Shown: piece by piece, positions 11,001 through 61,094 of the stretch
Numbering within the stretch: position 1 is the first letter of the stretch
How the letters are laid out: each line of letters opens with the position of its first letter
NCBI RefSeq assembly: GCF_964204865.1
Contig: NC_135262.1
Span: 9,486,001 to 9,550,000, forward strand
DNA: 64,000 bases
Source of the DNA: Styela clava
Lineage: Eukaryota; Chordata; Ascidiacea; Stolidobranchia; Styelidae
Direction of reading: 5' to 3'
Program-made: the position numbers and the translations under genes
Notes under the pieces: model-generated
Seen by the model: only the letters and a program-made list of their open reading frames with translations
Told to the model about the DNA's origin: nothing
Database searches by the model: none

Positions 11001-14000
11001 GCGTTATTAATTTAATAAATCAGACAATGAGGTGCAAGATATTGCTGCATGCTGGTGGCTCACTATAATTACCATGAGAGCATTGATCAGATGTATATGC
11101 ACACGAATGTCCAATTGCAGTACCGTTAGCTTATGTGAATTTAGTAAAAAATTTCAATATCAGAAAAATAAGATATTTTTTCAACAGAAAATTTGAAAAA
11201 CGATCGATAGGTTTGCTTCGTCTCCAATGAAGTCAATTTTTTTAATGCATCGTGATTTGTAATAACGATAGTAAACAATGTATTTCTGGTAATGGTCCTG
11301 TAGTAAATTATTTATTTCATTTTCTAATCATGGAACCGAGTCGCTTTATTATATATCTTTGCCAATAGATCAAAATATATATATTTTTATTTAGGAATGG
11401 GCCTATTTGTCATTCCGAAAACGAGGAGGAAGAGGCGAACAACTCGAAACAGAACCATTGAGCGCACAGAAACATCGATTCAGGAACGCACTAGCAAGGG
11501 CAGACGGATTGAAATGCAATAAACAGCTTTCTACTGATACACTCAGAGTCTATGAATTTGCCGGTAATTTTTTCGATTACAACATTCATCATTACCCATA
11601 TTAGCCAGCCCAAAATTTCTTCAAAACCTTAATCTTCAAGCTTGAACTACCACTCCACCGCCTTTAAGTTGAATCATATACTTTTCTTATGCTGTCTGTA
11701 TTCATTGTATTTCATTATTTTTACATTTGCTCAGATACTAAAAAAGAGAAAGAGCAAACAGAAAATGGAAATTTCCGATCTGGAAGAGGAGGAAATTCAC
11801 CTCACTCTTATTACGAACAACAAGCAGCCCCCGAAAGAAATGATTATGCGTATAATGTTCAAATGCATCACCAAGGTGGAATACCAGGTAAAACTATTGT
11901 TCTTACACATATCGTCACGCTAATAACCGAATTGCGTAAGTCATTTTTAGCAGTTTTGAGTAAAACGTAAAAAACTTCCTAATGATATTGCTATGCCATT
12001 GAGAATCAATAATTTGCCATAGTTCAATTTTTCGATCGTAGACGGATTCAAGTTAATTTGTATGACGCAGTCAAGTGACGTCATAAAGGCGCTCTGTGAC
12101 TTAGGCAGAAATGTGTTAGGGGACATACGCAATTTGGCAACTTGACTACATGTACCAGTCCTGAAAACAAAACAATCCAAAAATGAATGTAATTCTTAGT
12201 ATATACGATGTCTAATCCCCAAAATAGCTAATCTGCTTCAATTACTTTATTTTTTATGTTTAAAAATATATATTTCCAAAAAACACGCTCTGCACATCCA
12301 CCGAAATAAGACTAACGTTAAATATAAAGAATAAAACAGCAATGTACCCTTATATAAAAGCCAACCAAGGTGAATTGGATTCAGACAGTGAATATCACAA
12401 GTGCACGCCTTCCTATACTGTAGTTTAAACTGAAACTTATAAGCGCTAAGCTAGAATCTGAGATGCAAAAACTCGAAAATCCTTCGCCGAGGTTATTTTG
12501 CCTTTGTGACGTCATAATAGTCCTGCGTTAACAATGATAATTCATTATGACGAAACAATTGAACAAATTTGCGTATCATACAAATTCTATATTTTTATGG
12601 GTTTCGGAATTCTTAAAATAAAATCTGAGTTAACAGACAGGTGCGCAGCATTACATAAATACTATTTTATGAAAAACTCAAAACCGCCAAAAATGACTTA
12701 CGCAATTCGGTTATTAGCGTGACGATATTCTGCTTTGCACACGTTCACAATGTTTGCAAATTATCTACATTTGGAGGATGGATAAGTATGGATGTACAGT
12801 GTTGCACACCCATACCTGTTTCTAAAGTAAGTGATCCATATTGGAATCCCCATACATATGCTACACTTTTTACTTGAAGATAGGAATCCACCATAAGTCT
12901 GAGCTTTTAAGAGCTTAAAAGTTAATATATATACCCGAATGTAGAATTTTATTTCGGTAAAATATGAAATGAGTATATTAAAAAATCCAATACCAGAATA
13001 TTCATTTAAAATCAGTCATCTTTGGCAACGTGAATACATTAACACACATAAAAATGAATTCTTAAACTATAACGATTATTGCCAACTGTCACAAGAAAAC
13101 TACACAAAACTGACACGATTTTGCAGATAAGTCGTATCGACTGCACAAAACTGAGTTTTAAAGCCGCTGTATTACCGTCCTATAAGATCATTATTGTTGT
13201 AAATCAAATTAATATCTAATATCATATTATTTTATCTAAATTAATATCTCCCAACATCACTCAACTAATAATCTCATATCAAACAAAATTCTTTTTAGAT
13301 AAGAAAAAATGATTTTATTAATATTTTGTGAATATATACAATATAGTGGCAAAAAGCATCATATTTGGAAAGCACCACCGGGTTCTAAAGAAGTTCCTGG
13401 AAATTTTTTCATTGTTTCGTTTTTCTAAGCTAAGAATTTTGTGGTTGACTCAAACTCTATGTTTATTCAAGGGTGCAGTGTACTGTATAATGAACTTCCT
13501 CTCGGTATATGTAAGCGAGTCAAACTGAATAATTAATCGACATCAAGAAAAGTTACATTTTTTGCATTTTGATCGGAACCATTTAGTTTCAATAATGTGC
13601 TTTTTATTTGTGTTGGTGTTGAGCTATGTTTCATTGTCTAACCTGAACATTCTGTTGTAATCCAGCAAAATTTTATTCTGTACAAATTAGATTTTCACAA
13701 CTCGGAACACAAAAATGCTATGATTCCTACATATGAAATCTGTAAAAATTCATTGGATTAATTTAACTTTGTATTTTATTTTTCTGAAATGTGGATTTTG
13801 AATCGACTTTTCAGTAATACTTTTACGTCTTTTCTATAGACCAACGTGAATGGGAAAACTACGGCAGCTCTCCTATGACAGTGACATCATCACCAAATCA
13901 CATAGCATGCTTCCAACCCCAGACAAATTTTCAGATTCCACAGACGACAGAAATGCAGGACGACAGAGAGCCATCCATCGGTACCCTTATTGAAGAGATG

Positions 14001-21188: not shown

Positions 21189-22272
21189 TCATTCGTCATC
21201 TAATGTCGTTAGAGGTCTAGTAAGCTCATTATAAGCTCGCAATGAACCACGAGAGGGACCAAGATACACTCGACACGCTTGATCAAGCAGGTAACGGTTG
21301 AGTGGGTGTGCTCGGTTACGTGCCACGTTCAAATCCATTCGGTAAAAATCCTTTGAGGTACGGGCAAAGTCAATATCATTTTTCTGTTGCGCTCTGGTCC
21401 CGTACATTTGCTGCATCTGCTGTCTTCAAAACAAAACAAAATTACTCTTATAAATAAGTACACAATGGAGTTAGTAAAAATCAAGGATGCAAAGATTTGT
21501 TACCTCAGTTCTTTGACATGTGTAAAATTAATAGTTCCTTTGTGCATAGCAATCTCAGGGCGGCGGTAATTCACTTTTGCAAAAGGCGTTAGATGGGTAC
21601 TACCTTCCTTCTGAGACCACGGAATCGGCTTACTTCTGAGAGGTAAAGAACTTCCGAATAAAAATCTACATAACTTTTGTTGGGGTTACATGGGACGAGG
21701 TACCTAAGCTAAGTCTAAGTCTTTGCGATCTACGATATTTATGCTTATAATGCAAGAATGTTGTATCAAGAATGAGATGGAACGTTACCGAAATACGTTT
21801 ACTTTAGCGTGGAGCAGGATTCTTGATTCACATGTATTATAATTATATGTGCATGCCCTCTTTTTTATCATATTTGAAACGCTTTTAGCGTGTTAGTAAG
21901 ATGTATATTTACTTTGGATCCAATATATCTTCTCCAGTAGATGGCAGCTTCATTCTCTCTTCTCTTCGTTGACTAAGCAATTGTCTACGTGTTAGATTTA
22001 TGTCGGGCAATGTTACCTGTGGGCGAAACAAATTATTTTCACTCTCAAGTACTGTATAAGATGGAGGAGTGAAAATAGGGGAAACAAGTTAAAAAAATTG
22101 TAAACAGAAACAAGTATTAAATATCTGAGATGGTGATGAAGATGTTAAAAATATGATAAGGACAGAGTATGAAAAATATCTATGATGAGGTTACTCGAAA
22201 AGTGAAGCCAAATTTATATCAAATGAAAAAATATATAGAATAATTGCAGTGAAAAAGAAAATTGCAAAAAAT

Positions 22273-22306
<34 letters not shown>

Positions 22307-25300
22307 CTCTATTACGGTAGTTAAACGGACCTGCCATAATTGCAGTACTTAAGCGGACGTCGTTCCTGTGTCCGTATCATTGTTTTTAAATACGTACTTG
22401 GAGAGCGTGAGAGCCGTTGACAACTACGGAAAAAAAGAGTCAACACAATCCTCTCGATGACAGATATAAAATTTTTGTCCGCTTAATTCGTCCACTTAAT
22501 TCAGAGCACCAAATGTTTTAGCCTATTTCGGCACTAAGCCGGACCCCTCTTATATGTCGCCCTGGATGTCTACATAAATGATGCTGCTTTTATTTTATTA
22601 CGCATTTTAAAGCGTATGACCTCGCTTTAATTTCCAATGGATTCGAACCATTTAGCATTATTTATCACAAAAAATAGCATTTTTTTTTCAATGTTCAGTA
22701 TTTTGTGCAAGGGAGATGCACTGTGTTTGGTGTAGGAAATAATCTTCCATGTCAAAAAATACTCAAAATGCAACGTGAAGGTAGACAAATCGAAACAAAT
22801 TGATTCAAACGTAATATATATTTGAAACTGAGAAATACACAGAGCATATCACAAATGTTCACCTATTCCAACCCTATGGTGTAACATATAGATTAAACAG
22901 ATGCTATGTTGTGAGTGTCAAGATATCAATACCAAGTCAAAATTATTGCATTCAAATAATATTGATAAACTTTGCGCAAAATATATCTCAAAAATCCGCA
23001 TATCTATATGGCTAGTTATTAAGCGTGACATATAATTGAAAAACAAAATTTCGAAATGCCATACATATTGAGAAACAATACACAAAATATATTTCAAATG
23101 TATCACCAATTTGATTGCTAAAGTGTGAAATATTATTTTAAAAAGGAAGTGTGGTATATAATAGTAAAATAAAATATGAAAGTGCTAATATTATTGAGAA
23201 ACAATAAAAGAAAATTATATATACGCAGAAGGAAACCGCAGAATGAAATTCGGAAATGCCAATAATATTGAAAAAATATCACAAACTTTATCTCAAATGT
23301 CCACCTATCCGGCCTTTTAATTTATACAAATAATTGTAAATGGGAATTCTGGTATGTCATTAATGAAGACAAAAATCACACAAATTCGATTTCAAATGTT
23401 CATCTATTCGGTCACTCAAATGTGGCACGTAATTGAAAAATGAACACCAGCCCTATTGAGAAACATTACACAAAATATATCTCAAATGTCTACTTATCCG
23501 GCATTTAAGTGTGGCATATACCAAATAAAATAAAAATTATGAAATCATATTGAGAAATATTACACAAAGTATATCTCAAATGTCCACCTATCCGGCCACC
23601 TAAGTGTGGCATACAAGAATTGAAATGAAAACCCTGAAATCATATTGAGAAATATTACACAAAGTATATCTCAAATGTCCACCTATCCGGCCACCTAAGT
23701 GTGGCATACAAGAATTGAAATGAAAATTTTGAAATCCTATCGAGAAATATCACACAAAGTATATCTCAAATGTCCACCTATCCGGCCACCTAAGTGTGGC
23801 ATAAAGCATTAAAATGAAAATTCTGAAATCATATTGAAAAACATTACACAAAGTATATCTCAAATGTCCACCTATCCGGCCACCTAAGTGTGGCATAGCA
23901 TTAAAATGAAAATTCTGAAATCATATTGAGAAATATTACACAAAATATATTTCAAATGTCCACCTATCCGGCCACCTAAGTGTGGCATACAAGAATTAAA
24001 ATGAAAATTTTGAAATCATATTGAGAAATATCACACAAAGTATATCTTAAATGTCCACCTATCCGGCCACCTAAGTGTGGCATACAAGATTTGAAATGAA
24101 AATTCTGAAATCATATTGAGAAATATCACAAACTTTATCTCAAATGTCCACCTATCCGGCCACCTAAGTGTGGCATAAAGCATTAAAATGAAAATTCTGG
24201 AATCATATTGAGAAACATTACACGAAGTATATCTCAAATGTCCACCTATCCGGCCACCTAAGTGTGGCATAAAACAATCACAATGAAAATTCTGGAATCA
24301 TATTGAGAAACATGACACAAAGTATATCTCAAATGTCCACCTATCCGGCCACCTAAGTGTGGCATAAAACATTAAAATGAAAATTCCGAAATCGTAATGA
24401 GAAACATTGTGCGAAGTATAAATCAAATGTCCACCTATCCGGCCACCTAAGTGTGGCATACAAGAATTGAAATGAAAATTCTGAAATCATATTGAGAAAC
24501 ATTACACAAAGTATATCTCAAATGTCCACCAATCCCGCCACCTAAGTGTGGCATACAAAAATTGAAATGAAAATTCTGAAATCATATTGAGAAACATCAC
24601 ACAAAGTATATCTCAAATGTTCACCTATCCGACCACCTAAGTGTGGCATAAAACAATCACAATGAAAATTCTGAAATCATATTGAGAAACATTACACAAA
24701 GTATATCTCAAATGTCTACCTATCCGGCCATCTAAGTGTGGCATAAAACGATCACAATGAAAATTCTGAAATGATATTGAGGAACATTACACAAAATATA
24801 TATCTCAAATGTCCGAATACCCGACTGCCTAAGTGTAGCATACAACTATTGAAACCAATTCCTGAAATCATATTGAGAAATCTTACACAAAATTTATCTC
24901 AAATGTCAACTTATTCGACCGCTTCAGTGTGTGAAATATAACTAAAATACGAAATTTCGAATACTAATCATATTTTGATGTTGTGGAAAATTGCTCAAAA
25001 TTTATCTCAAATGTTCACCTATCCGATAACTTGAGAGTGACAAATATTATAAAACAAAATTTTGAAACCATATTGAGGAACAATACAGAAAATATATCGC
25101 AAATCGTCATTTACTCAGATACGTAAGTGTGTCATGTAAATGCAAAATGATATTTTGGAATGACAATAATATTAGGAAGCATTCAAAGAAAATTTCAACC
25201 ATCCGACCATTTCAGAAGGTATGTAATTAAAACACGAAATTCTTTAAAAAAATATCAAGAACCATTACACACAACATATCTCAAATGTTCAATTAAATGA

Positions 25301-28039
25301 CGTTTTCAGTGGGGCCTATAAATGCGAAATGAAATTTTGCCATGTCAACTAAAAAGAGAAACTTTACACCAATTATAACTCAAATGTCTACCTATCAAGG
25401 CGCGCCTAAGTATAGCAGTGATTATACAGTCAACTATACAAGCGATCAACATGAAATTATTCAACCCCGATATTAATTTAGAATCTTTGCACAATTTATT
25501 TAAAATTTTTGCACCAACTCGGAATACAAAAACATGATTGTTATTTTGAATTTATAATTAAATAGTAAAAATGTATGCCAAGTATGTATACGAATTTGGA
25601 TATGCCCACTAGATTAAGTTGTTGAGGAGAGACAAAATTATGTGTTCACTGCCGGTTCATCTTTATGGATTATACAGAGATGTCTTAAAGCTTTACAATA
25701 AACTTCTCGCAAGATATACAAAGCCGTGCAACTATTTTTCTTTTCGTCGTTTCTTTTCTGGTTCACGTTTATTTAGAAGCTTTTTTTGAAATTGATTTAC
25801 AGCCCTTTTCTTTTCCGTATATATGATTTTCTTTTAAGTCACTTACATTGCTTATTGAAAGTGATTCTGAAGATGGTGCGGTATAGTCTGTTGACTAATC
25901 TGAAACTTTGGTCAAAAATACATGCATAAGTCACAAAACATCATCACAGTGTTCTAGTCCAATTCAGAATTACGGTACTCTTGATTGACAGAACAAACGA
26001 AGTGTTTGAAATGGGGAATTGCATTATTACTCAAATAAAACAGTGGGGGCTCCCGAAGTATGCGAACCAAGATGGCGGACATCGGAATGTAATATGTGTA
26101 CTAGGTTAGGGTTAGGCAATAATTTTAGGTATAAATACTACGGGAGGCTCTTGGCTAGTCTTCGAACTGATAATAGGACTAAAATAAGGAAAACTGGAAA
26201 AAAATTATCGCCTAACCCTAACCTGTTACCCATGTTACGTTCCAATGTCCGCCATCTTGGTTCGCATACTTCGGGAGCACCAAACAGTGTTTTTAAACGG
26301 TGCAATACAATTATTCGTAGATAGCTGCGCTATTTGTGATGGGCTACAATTGATATTATGATTTGGTTTATTACCATTCATTGGTATCAATTTGAGATAC
26401 CGTATTTAATTAAAAACAAGCATAGCAAACTGATTTAATCACCTCCTGGCACAGCGTTCTCCGAATCACTACCCGCATTTCCGTCTGCTAAGTTCTGAAC
26501 ATGGGCCATCTCGTTGGAGAGTCACTTACATGTGAACAAAAATACAGCCCAGTAAATAACTAGATGAGGATGGTAAAATAACACAGGGATATGTGCCAAA
26601 TCACAAAACAAAATTGCTAGCAATGCAATTCTTTAAAACTGTTTTCCGAAGATAAAATATTCTAATCTAATATGAAGCGGTGTATTAAATATTTTTATTT
26701 ATACAAAGCTATACAAACCTATATAAAGTGGCGTCAACCACTCGCTTCTCGTGTCTCCTTCTGTTTCGAGAAAAATTTGAATTCATTGAATTTTCACAAT
26801 CTTCGTTTGTATTGTCATCTGGATTTAGAAATCCTTCTGAATTACACACTCTTACAAACGCAAACTCAGTCGTAGCAATATTTTGATGGTCAGATCAGAA
26901 CTACGACCAGTAAAAGCACAACAGTATCAGTAGTCTATATTTTGATAATCAGGAATAAGTGAAAAATCTCAACAACAAAAATATATGCTAATGATTTGGT
27001 TTCTGCAAGACTAACTGCATATCCTTCTTCTATGCTTTTGTGTCGGCGGATCCGTATGCATATAGTGCAAGTATGCTGTAGCAAGAGTAAAGATAACTAT
27101 CCTACAGTCCTAAGTGATTCAAGAGTCTTGCTGCACACTAACACAATTATATTTCTGTAACGTTTCGTCTGACCAAGGTCAGACTTCTTCAGACATACAT
27201 AGTAAATATAATTGTGTTAGTGTGCAGCAAGACTCCTGAATCACTTAGAACAAAAATATAGTAGCCCTAATATTAAAAATCGTTATGACTAATCACCTTA
27301 TCCGATGAGTGATGATTTCCAGCAGCATTCCTCGGTGACGTTGAAAACCTTGTTTCAAGTTATTATGACTCGACTTCAACTCACTGGGTAATTGATAACA
27401 CCTGACACAAAAGACTTGGATCGCTTCTCCAAACACAACTGTTCTATTTTATCTAAATTTCTGCAATCACTCACTCATGAAGATCCCGATCCCCTCACCA
27501 GGTTACTTGCGAACAAAACGGCAAACGTGGTAGGTAAAGTTCTCGGCAAACCCGACAGTTTTACTATTGCGACACAAAGCCTCTTTAGTACGGAGTTGTG
27601 AATTAAGGTCCTTTTCAGTTTATTGAGCTTATATTACAAAAAACAGAACGAACGATCTTCATGTTCTGCCTGGTTATTGTATCAAAATTATCAATCCTAC
27701 TCTCCAAAAATCGTAAAGACATATACCGAAAAATTAAAAGATTTTCGCGTAAACAAAATGTCCGCTTAGTGTACGAAAATAATACCCGTTGATTATAAAC
27801 CAGCAGAACTACTGTCCCCTTAAAGGTGGCGAAAATATGCAGATATTTTAAAAATATTGAAAGAACATATTATTTTTGATACTGTTTTATCAGAGAAAAA
27901 GAGAATTCAGCAAAAAATAGCAAAACGTTTTAATTATGGAACGTGGAATAATTAAGCGGACAGGAAAATGTCTACCCAATTTTTCCGTCTACATAACTGT
28001 CGCTTTTTTAGCACGGTATGTCTACTTAACTACCGTATT

Positions 28040-28088
<49 letters not shown>

Positions 28089-28721
28089 CCTTTGTTTGGT
28101 CGATCATCACATCGATTTCTGGATCAACAATATTTTGTACAGTTATTCGACTCTGGCCACCAACAAATGTATCATTGGGAAGTCTGTTGACGAATTCAGG
28201 GTCATATGTTCTTGCATACGGTCTTAACCCATTCCAAATATTTGGAGTGTGTGGTGGACTAGGTAAATAAATTAAAAAATTAAAATATAGCATTATATTG
28301 TGTTGCATTTGTCAGGAATAAACTTTCAACCTTACATTGGTTTTTCTGTCATCTGCACTATGTATGATGTTAGACGTAGCTCTGCTCTTGCTCTCGCTAA
28401 TTCCATCTGATTATGGTCAACAAAAGTTCGATTACCTTCTTTTCGTGCTTAATATATCAAAAAACATCAGTAAATAAAAGATAAGCACATAATATATAAC
28501 AGTAATGAATTAATTTAACCTCTAATGTTAACTGCGGTAGCAGGCAATCGTCCTCCATGACTTGTCACAGACGCTACTTCAGGCTCTTCTACAAATGATA
28601 CTTTCTGTATAAAATTTAGTTTTTCAAATTAATACAATATTTATTTCTATTTTAAGTTTTGATTCAATAACTAACATATTAAGAAAATTACCTTTTCTTT
28701 CACTGACATTCCGTTTGACAT
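21189..28721 (-). CDS. Conserved-looking protein of unknown family (possibly axonemal)
   Basis: Seven exons on the minus strand join in phase, in order: 28692-28721, 28520-28604, 28336-28447, 28090-28258, 21913-22016, 21504-21635, 21189-21423 (867 nt, 288 residues). The start Met has an in-frame TAG three codons upstream. The protein is soluble and basic, rich in Arg, Pro and Tyr, with no signal peptide or membrane segment. Visible words: NIWNGLRPYARTYDPEF, NRLPNDTFVGG, KPIPWSQKEGSTHLTPF, RVYLGPSRGSLRAYNEL. Short Tyr/Pro/Arg-rich segments like these recall ciliary microtubule inner proteins (CFAP and SPMIP types, for instance TEPP/SPMIP8), but this is only an impression. Exon 2 has a weak donor (gttaaa). 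Intron 4 is 6.1 kb and contains a satellite, a MITE and a hairpin repeat. The exon 4 donor is followed almost at once by a (TA)n tract. Confidence 0.65.
22276..22304. repeat. (TA)n microsatellite
   Basis: Uninterrupted TA dinucleotides. A sequence starting attacggtagttaaacggac follows on its right side; a similar word, read on the other strand, abuts the second TA tract at 28042. Confidence 0.9.
22305..22560. mobile_element. Possible pogo/Tc1-like transposon fragment
   Basis: Begins after a TA run with acggtagttaaacggac and contains repeated agcggac / gtccgctta words. A second, different sequence with the same end (acggtagttaagtagac on the minus strand) abuts the TA run at 28042. Shared ends next to TA suggest TA-inserting elements. 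The opposite ends were not found, so boundaries and class are uncertain. Confidence 0.3.
22840..25410. repeat. Satellite array, ~94-bp unit, in intron 4 of the minus-strand gene
   Basis: About 27 tandem copies of a 92-95-bp unit. The core words are tatctcaaatgtccacctat, ccggccacctaagtgtggca and gaaatcatattgagaaa. Spacing between successive tgtccacct words from 23581 on is 95, 95, 94, 92, 95, 93, 94, 95. Central copies (about 23550-24780) are nearly identical, while copies at both edges are increasingly diverged, the pattern expected from unequal exchange. An open frame across three units on the minus strand (24031-24270) is a by-product of the repeat. Confidence 0.93.
26046..26281. mobile_element. 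MITE with ~47-bp inverted repeats (236 bp), copy 1
   Basis: Starts ggggctcccgaagtatgcga and ends with the reverse complement, ending gggagcacc; about 47 bases of each end pair with only a few mismatches. Perfect 8-bp flanking duplication aaacagtg (26038-26045 and 26282-26289), which points to hAT-type insertion. Inside, an inverted pair of telomere-like words (gttagggttaggc and gcctaaccctaac) forms part of the fold. Second copy at 56808. Confidence 0.9.
27110..27248. repeat. 139-bp hairpin with hammerhead-like core (minus strand)
   Basis: The arms at 27110-27154 and 27204-27248 pair over 45 bases with one mismatch. The 49-base spacer, read on the minus strand, contains CTGAAGA (27192-27186), then AGTCTGACCTTGGTCAGAC, which folds into a 6-bp stem, then GAAAC (27166-27162) and GTTACA. 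This order (CUGANGA, stem II, GAAA, short stem III, cleavage site, return of stem I) is that of a type I hammerhead ribozyme. TGT before CTGAAGA can pair with ACA after the presumed cleavage site, continuing into the long arms after an internal loop. An extra A precedes stem II and stem III has no loop, so activity is unproven. It lies in intron 4 of the minus-strand gene, in the sense orientation. Confidence 0.55.
28042..28081. repeat. (TA)n microsatellite beside a splice donor
   Basis: About 20 TA units. On the minus strand it begins about eight bases downstream of the exon 4 donor (aag|gtatatac) of the minus-strand gene, so length changes could affect that splice site. Confidence 0.9.
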
Positions 28722-55171: not shown

Positions 55172-57254
55172 TCAAGGGATAGTGTTGCTCTCCTTTGGGG
55201 AGTGATGAATGGGTTTGAAAGTATGAGGCTTTACATATAAGGTATGTGGATCAACAGCCACAGTGTGAGCAGGTATAGAGGAAGGCTCATGAAAGTATAC
55301 AAATAAAACAGAAATGATGCTTTGATATAAAAGAGCGCTGAAAACTACAATCATGAACCACCATTTTCCTTGTCCCTGTAAAATGAAGAAATGTTAGGTG
55401 TTTCAGCTCTGGAAAAGTAAACATCGTTGTCGTGTTACTATTAGAAAGCTAATATTGAGGTATGAAAACTGTTCTGATTAGTAAAGTGTAATTAAAATTT
55501 TATTCAAATTGGTTGAACACAAGCACAAATTTAACATAAATTTATCAGCTCTCATGGGAACTCATCATACCATAAGTTTAACGATTAAACGAACGAGGAG
55601 AACAAGAATTTCTAAAGTTTTTACTAATTTCAACTTTATGCAAACGAGTATACATACAGAAAAAATAGTGAATATTCCAATATTCAATGAAACGGGGACT
55701 AAAACAACGACTAAACAGAAATCACGTAAACACAATCTGTTCGACGGTTTTTATTTATTAAAGTGACTGAAAATATTGTAATTCACTGTAAAATGCTCAC
55801 CACTGTTTCTCTTTTATAAAACCAGGATAACAGAAGACATACGAAGATACTTACTAAAAAAAATTCAGGTAAAAACAAATTAGATGTCAAAAATTTTCGC
55901 GTGCAAATGTCACGTTTGATTAGGGTGACGAATAGAATGAATGAATTGATACGTCAGAGTCTAACGTACGTTTGCATTTAGAGCCCATCATTTTGGAAGT
56001 ATCAGGTAGGCAGTTGAATACATTCAGTAAGTCTCAGGATAGTTCTCTGTTACTATTGGAGAACGTTTATCCATAGGCAGCTATTCAAAAGGTAACACAT
56101 ACGTCAAGTTTTGGAGTCTAGCATGCACGCTCTAATATACAAACGAGAATATCGGCCAGAGACCGAAGACTTATCGATCGAAAGTTAGGGACTCCCCCAA
56201 AACATCGCTCTTACTCCATAGTGACACCTTGTGTCCCATCACTAATTAATTAATAACTCGCTAATTATACTACATAATTCATCCAAAAACAATAGGCTTC
56301 TGTTCCAACATATGATGAATGCACATGCAAAATCTAGAGCAGATTCAATTTCGTTTTCGGGAGATATCGCGTGCATCTAACAGACAGACAGACATACAGA
56401 TACCTATCAACATACTTACCGATCAAAATCGATAAGTAATAAGCTACTGCCTTCATTTAGTGCACTGTGTCGATTTCGCTACCAACAACATTAAATGGGG
56501 ATGTATGAATGAATCTTGTCATTAATAAGTTATATTTATTACGCACAATACCAATCTATGCATGATTGTTTACATGGCATATTTAATTATTAGATTATTA
56601 AAGTAACTTACTTGCAATATTGACAAGTAGATATAAGTCATGGTGAACTGATGATGACTTAATTCCCACGAGTACTATCGCAATAATTGCAACGATAAAA
56701 CTTATTGCACCGTAACCGCGCACAAGTTTACTCTGAAAAAATTAAATGAATAAAAAGTGATAGATTCACATGAAGGCTCTTAAACCTAATGACGTTACTA
56801 TTAAGTGGGGGCTCATGAAGTATGCGGACCAAGATGGCGGACATCGGAATGTAATATGTGTACTAGGTTAGGGTTAGGCCATAATTTTAGGTATAAATAC
56901 TACGAGAGGCTCTTGGTTCGTCTTCGAACTGATAATAGGACTAAAATAAGGAAAATTGGAAAAAAATTATCGCCTAACCCTAACCTGTTACCCATGTTAC
57001 GTTCCGATGTCCGCCATCTTGGTTCGCATTCTTCGGGAGCACCATTAAGTGTTCTCCAAATCAAGCTATGATTCCCCTTCCCATTTTATTAAATACTGTC
57101 GTTAAGAATTTCAAGAGGGCCTATATCTACTGTTTTCGGTCACAGAATATTCCCAACTGTTCAATGTTTCCTCCAAGTTAGGTAAGTAATTTCGTACGCT
57201 TACCTTAAGAGGACTGATTTCGTAGTAGATTGGTCCAGATGAATTATTCTCCAT
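55172..57254 (-). CDS. Small multi-pass membrane protein, TMEM243-like
   Basis: Four minus-strand exons join in phase: 57204-57254, 56612-56732, 55801-55853, 55172-55375 (429 nt, 142 residues). After a short polar N-terminus there are three hydrophobic spans: GYGAISFIVAIIAIVLVGI, then LYLLVNIAISIFVCLLL built across the exon 2/3 join, then FMIVVFSALLYQSIISVLFV. The spans are separated by a basic loop (WFYKRETVGQGKWW); the last span ends in YFHEP and a His/Pro-rich tail follows. Size, span order and the loop and YFH features resemble TMEM243 (MM-TRAG), a small protein of unknown biochemical role; the match is from memory and needs a search. Exon 3 is only 53 nt but restores the frame between exons 2 and 4, which supports it. 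Introns contain a Helentron-like repeat (56143) and a MITE (56808). Confidence 0.65.
56143..56439 (+). mobile_element. Helentron/DINE-1-like repeat, copy 5
   Basis: Starts acgagaatatcggccagaga, with acttatcgatc at 56169, and ends cttaccgatcaaaatcgataagt (56437). Located in intron 2 of the TMEM243-like gene, antisense to it. Confidence 0.72.
56808..57043. mobile_element. MITE with ~47-bp inverted repeats (236 bp), copy 2
   Basis: Same length and nearly the same sequence as the element at 26046, with a perfect but different 8-bp flanking duplication, attaagtg (56800-56807 and 57044-57051). It lies in intron 1 of the TMEM243-like gene. Confidence 0.92.
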
Positions 57255-59783
57255 TGCAACTCTGCCTTCTAAATTAAAATTTACCTGTAATATTGACGGT
57301 TTAAATCAACAGCAGCATAGCTTAGATGTATCATATACCCGTGGTCGCTCTTATGAATTGTTTGGATAGACACGCCTGGACGACTAGTTATACATCACAT
57401 GAGTGTGGCACAGAATAACATTGTGTAACCTCCACAATACGTCAGATAACTCGAATATGATTAACGTATTTAGTTCCATCTTGCAAAATGCGTGATCATG
57501 CATACGCACGAAATATCTAAATACTAGGTCGTTGAAGAATAATAAAGATTCTGAAAAATTCAACTAATTTTTGTACCAGGAGTTATTTTCGAAATAACAT
57601 TATTCATTTTATACCGGAGCTAAACAAAAGTCGCGAGTTGATTTGTGCTCGACGGTTGGTATGAGCCCTAAAATAACGCGAGTTTTAAGATACTGTATAA
57701 GAATATTTTTCTGTCACAGAAAATAATTTAGTTGGCCGAAATCTGTTAGCGGTTAAAATTCGACAATTACTCTAGAACAAAAAAAAAACGAAAGATAAGT
57801 TTTGTTCCTCAGAATGTCAGTTTAAAAGTTTGTATATAACATTCTTCTCATTCAATATAACTTAGGTATAGAATATTTCGACAAAAGTTTTTTTTCCAGA
57901 GAGAAATTTGTAGTATTCAATATGTGTCTCGAATATGGTGACTGCGTCTATATATTCAAGCTGTTCTCGTGTAGGCAAGATAAAGCCAATAATTCGAAAC
58001 AGTTGTCTGTGGATAAGGTAAGCAAGGCTATAAAATAAGTCAAAGTGGAAAAGCATGGCATAAAGAGTAACTCACGGATAGATGAATAACCTTAGTAAGC
58101 CATGATAAATTCGTGTGCCGAAATACTGTACCTGTAAATACTGTGCCTGTATTTTAAAAAATGAATTCGAGTTCATGAATTTGAATCGCTTTTATGCTTT
58201 GCTGAGTGTTACCAGGTTCTCAAATTCCCATTATATTTTAAAGATGATTGCTGGATACAATACGAATAAGAAAAGTATTTCTGAAATTTGCATAATATCC
58301 CATTTTCCGCCAGTATCGCATTATATTATTATATTGCAGTTTCCTAAAATTGCCAATTTAAGATCCGATTTTCTGAGTTCATTTTGCACCGTTCATTTTC
58401 AGAAAACTTTTTTTTAACCAACAGGCTTTAAAACTTCATTCGTAGCTTTTTAAAAGCGTATGCTCAAGTTCTGTATGACGAGATAACGCTAAAGGTTTAT
58501 TCTTCTTGATGTCATTTTACATGATATGCGACCTAATATCCAAGAATCTGTAAAGGTTTAGCAGATAAGGGCTTCTGTGTAGTGTAAAGGTTTATGCGTT
58601 AATTATAGATAATTAACTTTACTGTTCTTGTGGCATTTTCAAACAAAACAAAACCTCAACCATTATTATAGCTAAAATCGTTACTGAAAAAGTCACAATT
58701 ATATTTACGGAATTTGCAAAGTCAGCGCTTCACTTGACAATTCTCATGACGTCATGCCCTTATTATTACTGCAAATCAGCTTCAAAATGAAGGGAATGTA
58801 ATTATTTTCGAAGAGAATTGGCGCAACAAATCGTAAGTAAGCCAATATGCGTCGTTACAACGAAATTCGTGATGGATTTCAAGTTATATTCTTGTTCACA
58901 ATTTAAGCTTATATATCTGCTGGCCTGATGGGGCTGATAAGCTGGAGTGCGCATAAGCACGGAAGGATCGTTGTAAAGCAAGCTTTCGAGATAGAACTGG
59001 AAAGACGTTGCGGATATAGGAAGATGCATTTTCTACACAATTCCCATTTCCAAATTTTTCAAAGCAAGTTTGGGAATTGAATGACAGCATAAGAACGTCA
59101 AGTATAAAGAACACGCTATTTCTTTTTACTGTGTCTATCAAAATTAATCCAGTGGATCAGATTCAGAATGTTGAAACTAATTATACTATTTTCTTACTTT
59201 CAAAAATATTTACACTTACTTATTCATAAAATATTCGTAGAATGAACATAAAATCCTAGACCAGTTATATATGCTTCCTATTTCGATGTATGATGGCGAA
59301 TGTCTATATTTCCTAATTAAATACATGTTTAACCTTATTTTGTGAAGAGATATCGAGATGCGTATGATTTTACCAGTCATCGTACTGAAGCAAATTTTGT
59401 ATTGCATTTGAAAACGTCCAAACGACTGTGTGCTATCGTATTTCAATTCACCACCCCACGCTAGAAATCAGCTTGTCGCACTTCATATCGCAATTCTGAT
59501 GATATTTAATATCAAGTTTACACAAAAAATGTTTCGCAATAAAACTAATCTTTTTTATATGATGTTTGTTTCAATTATTGTCCAGATTAATTGATCTCGA
59601 GTCGCTTAGGTATATCATAGCTACGCAATTTTATTGATTGTGAGGCATACACAATAACTCTTCATTACGTGACGACGTACAACGTTTTTCACCTTCAAAT
59701 TATTGTACAAACGTTTTAATCAATTTCAAACGAGATATCGTTTGTATTGCATGAAGCAGGCATGTGTACGTTTTCGGATAAAT
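57255..59783. other. Intergenic between divergent genes
   Basis: The TMEM243-like gene (minus) and the BAAT gene (plus) diverge from here. Just above 57254 a 5' untranslated exon with a possible donor (ctgtaatatt... on the plus strand) may exist. Open frames at 57862, 58115, and overlapping minus-strand frames at 58802-59141, are not assigned to any family; the last has protein-like composition (contains YNDPSVLMRTPAYQPHQA) but no clear splice partners. Confidence 0.35.
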
Positions 59784-61094
59784 ATGGCTAAAATAATTGT
59801 CAAACCATACAATTCTTTGTATGATGATCCCAATTTGGTGATCAGAGTGGTGAATCTAGGGTTAAATGAGAAAATAACGATACAATCATGTCAGACGAGT
59901 GATAAAGGAAGAGAATTTCATGCTTATGCATATTACATAACTGACGACAATGGAAAAGTTGATGTTTCGGTCGATTCTTCGTTTGGAGGATATTACACCG
60001 GCGTGGAACCGTTGGGACTATTATGGGCAATGAGAATAGTTCCGGGACCAAAACAGAAATTTTCGTCTTTAGTTAAGCAAGATGCAACCACACCTGCTTT
60101 CATTATATATAAAGTGTATAGAGGTCACATTGACATTGATCAAATTGGAAGCATAAATACCAGAAAGTGTTTGATGGTGTCTTCTAAATTTGAAAGAAAA
60201 TTTGCGAATTCTAACATTCGTCGGTTCGTTGTAAAAGAAGGTGATCTCAGAGGTGTTATATTTGTTCCTGAACAAAAAGGTTCTTTTATGGGTGTTATAG
60301 ATTTAGGAGGAGTGAACGGTGGGATGGTAGAAATGCGCGCGGCACTACTTTCAAATTACGGATTTGTTGTACTGAGCCTAAGTCTCTTTGGCGCTTTCGA
60401 TCAGATAAAAAAAGTTTCTCACGTTGATTTGGCGTACATTGAAAGAGGGGTCAAATATCTTCTTTGCCACGAGAAAGTTTTTAAAGATGGGGTCGGGGTG
60501 TTGGGAGTTTCATTTGGAGGAAGCGCTGTATTGGCTGCAGCAACATTTGTCAAAGATATAAAGTGCGTTGTGAATATTAGTGGTCCTCTTTCTGCTTCTG
60601 GTTTTACAAATTTCAAATATGGTGAAAAAATATGGATGCCCACGGAAGAAAAGATTAATGGACATCCAGTGATTGACGGCATACAGCGTCCATCGTGCAT
60701 GATACAAACTCCACAATATCTAAAAATTCATAAGCACTTCCCAGAATTTCAAAAATCGGAGGCATCCATACTTTTTATATACGGCGAAGATGACAGATCA
60801 GTGAACTGGAAAGAACAGTCAGAACTTGCTATACAGCTAATGAAATCTTCAAACAAGACAAATTATGAAATAAAATCGTACCCCGGAACTGGCCATATGA
60901 TCTTTCCCCCATACGTACCCATGTTTTCTTTGGCGTATATCTTGCCAACGGCCAACTATCCCACCTACCTCGGTGGTACATCGAAAGATCATGCATATGG
61001 TCAGGCTAATGCATGGAAACACATTATCAGCTTTTTGAAAGAACATGGGAACAAAATGAGAGATAACAATTTCACTCTCGAATCACGTTTGTGA
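59784..61094 (+). CDS. BAAT/acyl-CoA thioesterase family enzyme, peroxisomal
   Basis: A single open frame of 436 residues from MAKIIVKPYN, the usual length of the family (bile acid-CoA:amino acid N-acyltransferase and type I acyl-CoA thioesterases such as ACOT4). The N-terminal domain has GGYYTGVEPLGLLWAM, the typical BAAT N-terminal signature. The alpha/beta-hydrolase domain has the nucleophile elbow GVSFGG (Ser243), the acid in YGEDDRSVNW (Asp336 or Asp337) and the histidine in PGTGHMIFPPY (His371). A Ser nucleophile favours thioester hydrolysis over amino-acid conjugation, which usually uses Cys. The last three residues, SRL, form a peroxisomal targeting signal (PTS1), so hydrolysis of acyl-CoA in peroxisomes is inferred. 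An upstream in-frame ATG at 59751 exists, but the 59784 ATG fits the family start. No intron interrupts the coding region. Confidence 0.92.
   Translation: MAKIIVKPYNSLYDDPNLVIRVVNLGLNEKITIQSCQTSDKGREFHAYAYYITDDNGKVDVSVDSSFGGYYTGVEPLGLLWAMRIVPGPKQKFSSLVKQDATTPAFIIYKVYRGHIDIDQIGSINTRKCLMVSSKFERKFANSNIRRFVVKEGDLRGVIFVPEQKGSFMGVIDLGGVNGGMVEMRAALLSNYGFVVLSLSLFGAFDQIKKVSHVDLAYIERGVKYLLCHEKVFKDGVGVLGVSFGGSAVLAAATFVKDIKCVVNISGPLSASGFTNFKYGEKIWMPTEEKINGHPVIDGIQRPSCMIQTPQYLKIHKHFPEFQKSEASILFIYGEDDRSVNWKEQSELAIQLMKSSNKTNYEIKSYPGTGHMIFPPYVPMFSLAYILPTANYPTYLGGTSKDHAYGQANAWKHIISFLKEHGNKMRDNNFTLESRL

Follow-up and report, generated by a model that had tools for sequence, protein, structure and literature searches.

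The hairpin at positions 27110-27248 of the 64,000-nucleotide stretch of DNA that was analysed (the window) very probably forms one end of a short insertion for which the machinery of a Penelope-like element (PLE) was responsible, and the motif at its tip probably represents a real ribozyme, that of the parental element. The evidence consists of a 263-bp unit, a 12-bp AT-rich duplication of the target site, many relatives, and homology to a PLE 5′ region that includes the hammerhead motif. The features of the insertion and of the larger repeat that surrounds it are as follows.

22265..28081, no strand assigned: larger repeat of about 5.8 kb, bounded by TA microsatellites and carrying the unit as a passenger (7/20 ten-kb loci)
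26974..26985, no strand assigned: target-site duplication AACAAAAATATA, tail side (exact 12-bp repeat)
26986..27248, minus strand: whole inserted unit of 263 bp, the hairpin (27110-27248) followed by a tail of about 120 nt ending CCAAATCATTAGCA (copies and target-site duplication)
27110..27154, minus strand: matching arm, continuing into the tail (arm comparison, copies)
27156..27158, minus strand: ACA, 3′ strand of a short stem I (sequence and fold)
27159..27161, minus strand: GTT, read as G16.2, U16.1 and U17, with no stem III loop (numbered by analogy with hammerheads)
27162..27166, minus strand: GAAAC, read as G12, A13, A14, A15.1 and C15.2 (sequence read)
27167..27184, minus strand: stem II and its loop, GTCTGACC-TT-GGTCAGAC (sequence and fold)
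27185..27185, minus strand: extra (bulged) A before stem II (24/25 arms, 3/3 PLE loci)
27186..27192, minus strand: CTGAAGA, hammerhead positions C3 to A9 with A at position 7 (sequence; the family arms change at position 7 alone)
27193..27195, minus strand: TGT, 5′ strand of the short stem I (sequence read and fold)
27204..27248, minus strand: short inverted arm running from CTAAG to ATTATATTT, a second copy placed head to head (in the 102-column arm reference its first column is 55)
27249..27260, no strand assigned: target-site duplication AACAAAAATATA, hairpin side (exact 12-bp repeat)

As a preliminary description of this DNA had stated, the two arms are 45 nt each with exactly one mismatch; they occupy 27110-27154 and 27204-27248, and 49 nt lie between them. 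The minimum free energy of the hairpin is -90.5 kcal/mol, against -30.5 +/- 3.6 kcal/mol for 200 shuffles (z -16.7), which is far beyond chance. Reading of the minus strand confirmed the order already reported for the centre, namely TGT, CTGAAGA, a single A, a 6-bp stem (GTCTGA...TCAGAC), GAAAC, GTT and ACA; the inner stem can be extended to 7 bp with a CTTG loop. The CUGANGA, stem II and GAAA that a type I hammerhead requires occur in this order in the window motif, plus one extra A; the stem III that it also requires is missing from the window motif, where AC/GU stands without a loop and the possible helix is intermolecular only. By analogy with hammerheads, cleavage is predicted after U17 of GTT (27159..27161). 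The hammerhead fold (-82.1 kcal/mol) lies 3.4 kcal/mol above the minimum (-85.5 kcal/mol) and is not the preferred fold, and the pairs of its stem I have a probability of about 0.006 or less. As a monomer in the window hairpin, the motif is probably inactive or very weak. The motif is likewise unusual. A descriptor fitted after it had been seen (CTGANGA, 0-1 nt, a stem of at least 6 bp, GAAAC) had no match in 300 random windows whose dinucleotide content was kept equal, and the looser GAAA version of it matched 0.03 times per random window (300 windows).

Exon-like open frames on the minus strand flank the region (GT donor near 28089, last frame ending at 21192), and it is plausible that the hairpin is transcribed in sense within an intron; tested pieces of these frames had no significant match in Pfam or PDB sequences. 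Another presumed intron contains a further stretch of the PLE 5′ region, now decayed (21775-21831, 77% over 57 nt). Gene pieces in the window, namely IRF-like, BAAT, EGF, kinase and collagen, point to an animal; a single frame of 473 aa (59673-61091) matches BAAT_C and Bile_Hydr_Trans, as in an acyl-CoA thioesterase/BAAT-type gene. The window also contains a 64-nt inverted repeat, 89% complementary, with its halves 692 nt apart (11909-11972 and 12665-12728).

At least 40 copies of the hairpin are present in its own assembly of 376.6 Mb, 40 of 1769 first candidates having been scored. Forty places were fetched, the window's own included; besides the latter, 10 scored places are 97-98% identical, most of them within the larger repeat, and flanking sequences put 13 of the 40 in one group with the window (L288-L298, L301, L327). 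The query of the copy search contained the core, and two old copies (L337, L340) came from flanks. The larger repeat at 22265-28081, between TA microsatellites, recurs in the genome at 93-95%: among the matches listed, 7 of 20 ten-kb loci match the window continuously over 4.4-5.8 kb at this identity, and two more match the larger repeat partly. At the remaining 11, the common part at the hairpin is the hairpin itself, mostly with the tail of about 120 nt. Inside the larger repeat, at 23454-24914, there is a 95-bp tandem repeat of about 15 copies with 88% matches.

Read on the minus strand, the unit starts with CTAAG (27248) and finishes with ATTAGC(A) (26986), and its 12-bp target-site duplication is AT-rich. 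Duplication scores of at least 9 were obtained for 24 of the 31 copies with placeable ends and lower scores for seven; the test left out eight copies whose ends were not found and one with no tail match. The null for this test, in which the left flank of one copy was paired with the right flank of another, is weak, for 16.7% of 540 chimeric pairs scored at least 9, a high proportion that is attributed here to the flanks that copies share. When each flank family is counted once and only repeats at or near the ends are admitted (omitting L314, the repeat of which is not adjacent), duplications of 12-13 bp are found at 11 distinct sites (window family, L299, L300, L302 family, L303, L306, L311, L313, L315, L318, L320), four of them with one mismatch (L306, L313, L315, L320); the duplication of L300 is 12 bp when exact and 16 bp with one mismatch. 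Duplications of 12-13 bp fit target-primed insertion better than a MITE. A different foldback of 236 bp with 81-nt arms has two copies in the window (26046-26281 and 56808-57043) with perfect 8-bp duplications (AAACAGTG and ATTAAGTG), and is presumably a hAT-like MITE, judging by duplication length.

The commonest copies of the unit have one long and one short arm. Others have a single arm (L323, L326) or are palindromes with both cores (L322; L337 at 1322-1569), and the core-bearing arm is away from the tail side in 9 of 39 copies with a tail match (L299, L303, L304, L306, L311, L312, L313, L315, L316; the orientation of L304 rests on a 26-nt tail match, and L324, with a partial tail match, is uncounted). 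The outer ends of the copies are fixed and their centres vary, which suggests that two cDNAs, each begun at a fixed site, were joined head to head. The fetched places showed no tandem copies of the unit; of the two kinds of copies that the preliminary description proposed to look for, other genomic copies were found but tandem ones were not.

A search of the same genome for the GIY-YIG domain (PF01541) gave 52 matches over the cut-off, five of them in frames of 960-977 aa, and several form clusters in which an inverted copy is accompanied by one or two direct ones (C18:14240445-, 14243322+, 14246741+; C18:15231438-, 15234312+, 15238008+; C6:20745789-, 20751430+). Three stretches of 1.3 kb upstream of GIY-YIG frames were read (L348, L349, L350), and the unit sequence is present in all three, at 86% over 237 nt in L348 (E 3e-68) and at 78% over 217 nt in each of the other two. 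In L348, about 45 nt separate the end of the match to the unit from the frame's first ATG (MDPTDSR...), the next 1.5 kb is open and matches RVT_1 (E 3e-9; one frame tested) with reverse transcriptase (RT) motifs that we take to be PLE-like, and the coordinates put the GIY-YIG match in frame with the open reading frame that begins behind the unit. L350 contains a 215-bp inverted repeat of 97% identity. The elements behind the unit-like upstream DNA appear PLE-like at these three loci, with RT seen in one frame. The unit and its relatives display an inverted or tandem pLTR arrangement (inverted arms, GIY-YIG clusters of inverted and direct copies, the inverted repeat of L350), homology to an element with RT and GIY-YIG (three loci, RT in the one tested frame), a short target-site duplication at an AT-rich site, and a conserved core with a free position 7. 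The earlier proposal, a retroelement remnant that bears a ribozyme or else a foldback derived from such a remnant, is supported by the 40 or more copies, the target-site duplications and the upstream match in PLEs, and its mention of Penelope-like elements in particular by the presence of the unit and motif upstream of three GIY-YIG frames, one with an RT domain.

The motif reads CTGAGGA-A-GTTTGACCGTGGTCAGAC-GAAACGTTACAG in L348 and CTGAGGA-A-GTCTGACTCTGGTCGGAC-GAAACGTTACAG in L349. Between these two, CTGAGGAA plus GAAACGTTACAG are identical at 20 of 20 positions, and stem II with its loop at 14 of 18, all eight pairs remaining standard by way of G-U changes; identity is 25/42 upstream, 34/42 further downstream and then 148/210, or about 70% outside the core, and the block conserved between the two PLE types extends past the core into the arm (the 34/42). 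When arms of independent insertions are compared, the 149 cells of CTGA.GA are all unchanged, position 7 differs in 8 of 25, and GAAA, with 5 changes in 116 cells, is no better conserved than the arm. A first conservation test (22 arms, 11 core columns) gave 1/242 changes in the core against 66/1715 in the rest (p 0.003). The conclusions rest on a fuller test to which two old copies were added (46 arms, 22 insertions, 10 core columns), with 5/265 against 126/2761 and a core rate that was the lowest of 67 slides; from both tests, segmental or flank duplicates were dropped (L288-L298, L301, L305, L307-L310, L319, L324, L325). Over all arms, conservation of the core is moderately significant (p 0.024). 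The 20/20 core, the unchanged CTGA.GA and the variable position 7 therefore make a good, not overwhelming, case that the core may be regarded as a conserved PLE feature with its free position where hammerheads have theirs. Related copies with a conserved core, whose absence the preliminary description had named as a refutation, are thus found in the family arms and in L348 and L349, and two of the doubts that it raised are in part answered: the extra A is a feature of the family (24/25 family arms, 3/3 PLE loci), and the A at position 7 falls on the position that varies.

The covariance-model check that had also been proposed gave no score above background with Rfam or with a purpose-built model, an outcome that the preliminary description had counted among those that would refute its reading. 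Rfam reported no hammerhead at E 10 in the hairpin region, the core alone or the PLE stretches, and none at gathering over the whole 64-kb window; its best matches to the hairpin were miRNA-precursor families, below gathering. On control loci, 17 viral ones matching CTGANGAGTC..GACGAAAC, Rfam at gathering reported a hammerhead in one, although 10 have type I flanks according to a script; nine of these 10 were missed. The Rfam negative weighs little because most control hammerheads were missed. The type I model R1 was built from 32 of 90 viral hammerheads, three training rows of which (L100, L082, L116) are visibly misaligned in stem III, and it recovered the motifs of 12/12 control loci at 41-67 bits; the control rows were outside the training set, but L022 equals a training row and L014, L072 and L088 resemble another. 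The window motif scored 12.7 bits under R1 (E 0.012 in its 1.1-kb neighbourhood) and came first over the 64-kb window (E 0.67), with noise at 12.1 and 11.7 bits, which is to say that it scores at noise level; the PLE motifs scored 6.9-8.5 bits. Under default filter settings, R1 missed the window motif and did not report a single family copy in 13 sources.

Viral contigs were also searched for the extra-A form. Among the matches listed, none of 42 with the extra A reached a flank score of 10, compared with 103 of 127 without it; at a flank score of 8 there were 2 of 42, and 2.6% of shuffles. In a search that dispensed with stem III, none of 54 matches in viral contigs (stem II of at least 3 bp) had a 5-bp stem I directly behind GAAACGTC, and therefore no set of natural minimal hammerheads could be built. 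A 24-nt arm pattern had no match in the viral contigs. A chance origin of the motif, favoured by the early model and viral tests, was overturned by the genome search. Four viral contigs (L024, L032, L193, L194) have three hammerhead-pattern matches each.

A DNA-transposon foldback (MITE) with a hammerhead-like centre arisen by chance would account for the near-perfect inverted repeat, for the miRNA-precursor families as the best Rfam matches (below gathering) and for the company of another foldback family in the window that behaves like a MITE, but it is very improbable: the duplications are 12-13 bp, a 120-nt tail stands on one side outside the inverted repeat, some copies are one-armed (L323, L326), and the same sequence forms the 5′ region of PLE-like elements. 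A MITE should have terminal inverted repeats at its two ends and a short duplication of fixed length, a combination that is not found in the unit. The same hairpin, with its near-perfect 45-bp arms and weak miRNA-precursor matches, could be taken for a long-hairpin small-RNA gene of the miRNA or hpRNA kind, yet the scores are below gathering and the hairpin is a repeat with target duplications, so that such a gene is scarcely credible; the hairpin could be diced as a by-product.

A metazoan retrozyme, a small circular-RNA retroelement with a type I hammerhead that is mobilised by PLEs, would suit the size of 170-400 nt, the duplicated target, the type I motif and the animal-like genome (PMC7229834). 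This reading is improbable, for no tandem copies were seen at the fetched places, the unit ends at CTAAG and ATTAGC instead of the cut site, and a stable helix III is present in most retrozyme hammerheads of invertebrates (PMC7761336); the tandem units bounded by the cleavage site that characterise retrozymes are not what is seen in this unit. A distinct possibility, albeit not the favoured one, is that the insertion is a PLE scar in which the motif is constrained for some other purpose (RT or protein binding, or a promoter) and is not a ribozyme. The block conserved between PLE types runs beyond the core (34/42), the models put the motif at noise, and viral contigs contain no convincing example of the bulged-A form among the matches listed, all of which would suit this explanation, but the variation inside the block is at position 7 and in stem II with pairing kept, and minimal hammerheads are known in PLEs (PMC6155905, PMC7761336, PMC11167929).

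The preferred reading, an insertion made by PLE machinery and carrying the motif of its parent, can be set beside what is described for better-known elements. At AT-rich sites, the protein of the Poseidon PLE cleaves the two target strands and extends each of them, its reverse transcription starts inside the RNA at two sites, the interval between which becomes the tail, and the Poseidon hammerhead cuts only with protein added (PMC11167929). For Penelope, PMC3846280 describes inverted pLTRs, one of which may carry a tail, duplications of 8-10 bp, and palindromic head-to-head junctions that are explained by self-priming. The unit fits either two-sided priming or self-priming, and two-sided priming is preferred, the two-strand route being given about an even chance. 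By this route, a PLE enzyme would nick both target strands and prime a pair of short cDNAs on the same type of RNA, one beginning at an outer site (ATTAGC, with the tail) and the other at an inner site (CTTAG, without the tail); both would run toward the 5′ end of the RNA and join head to head near the hammerhead, producing a foldback. The two orientations of the core would then be found because the surviving central core depends on which cDNA ran further. The tip motif would be the PLE's own minimal type I hammerhead, with no stem III loop, a bulged A and a GUU site, and the parental hammerhead may act as a dimer or with the help of the PLE protein.

Minimal type I hammerheads of PLEs were reportedly described by Cervera and De la Pena in 2014 and by Lunse in 2017. 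In the CChMVd hammerhead, an extra A sits between A9 and stem II. An extra A in this hammerhead is said to have been reported by De la Pena and Flores in 2001, a paper listed in PMC6155905. The unit resembles the Penelope of Adineta vaga (PMC3846280) and the Poseidon of Anolis (PMC11167929) in its head-to-head inverted 5′ regions, the tail on one side, the short target duplications, and relatives that have RT and GIY-YIG with a hammerhead near the start of the ORF. It differs from them in being only about 263 bp long with no ORF and many copies, in its tail of about 120 nt instead of 30-40, and in duplications of 12-13 bp instead of 8-10 bp. The window motif shares the type I order and loopless stem III of minimal PLE hammerheads as they appear in PMC7761336 and PMC6155905, a comparison by description only, and differs in the bulged A before stem II, the GUU site, and a short stem I capped by a 45-bp foldback; the absence of helix III described there for PLE hammerheads goes some way to answer the remaining doubt of the preliminary description, that stem III lacks a loop. 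The CChMVd plus-strand hammerhead, an unrelated RNA for which no homology is claimed, also has an extra A in its core (PMC3705267). Metazoan retrozymes (PMC7229834) are similarly short, non-autonomous and hammerhead-bearing with target duplications, but the unit differs from them in that no tandem arrangement was seen and its ends are not at the cut site.

The junctions of the arms may preserve a trace of cleavage. Of 19 independent two-armed insertions, 10 have a shorter arm whose start falls within columns 51-62 (51, 51, 55, 56, 56, 56, 57, 58, 58, 62; none beyond 62). The predicted cut is between columns 50 and 51, and the shorter arms of these 10 insertions end 0-11 nt past it; the other nine start further upstream, at columns 2-45, and those arms must therefore have been copied past the predicted cut site. 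A uniform spread of starts over columns 1-88 would put about 2.6 of them in 51-62 (binomial about 6e-5, worked by hand for a column range chosen after the junction data had been seen). The count used the set of the conservation tests and only arms that reach column 88, and in L317, L321 and L337b the end of the short arm was placed from alignments at 75-83% identity. Synthesis of a cDNA on RNA that had already been cut would stop by run-off at the new 5′ end or just short of it. It may be suggested, tentatively and as a rather unlikely explanation, that the junctions are fossils of hammerhead cleavage in vivo, one cDNA having been copied from RNA cut at GUU^ACA. The clustering could possibly come instead from the AT-rich sequence just behind the site, from wobble in the alignments, or from bias of the similarity search, which disfavours very short arms.

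The motif is a hammerhead-like form that Rfam leaves unreported here. If the junctions do record cleavage, PLE hammerheads would shape the products of integration, and a hammerhead variant with a bulged A and without a stem III loop would cut in vivo. A many-copy family of tiny two-cDNA insertions is a record of the points at which reverse transcription started and stopped, and genome-wide counts of its junctions could test both the use of the two target strands and the cutting of the RNA before it is copied.
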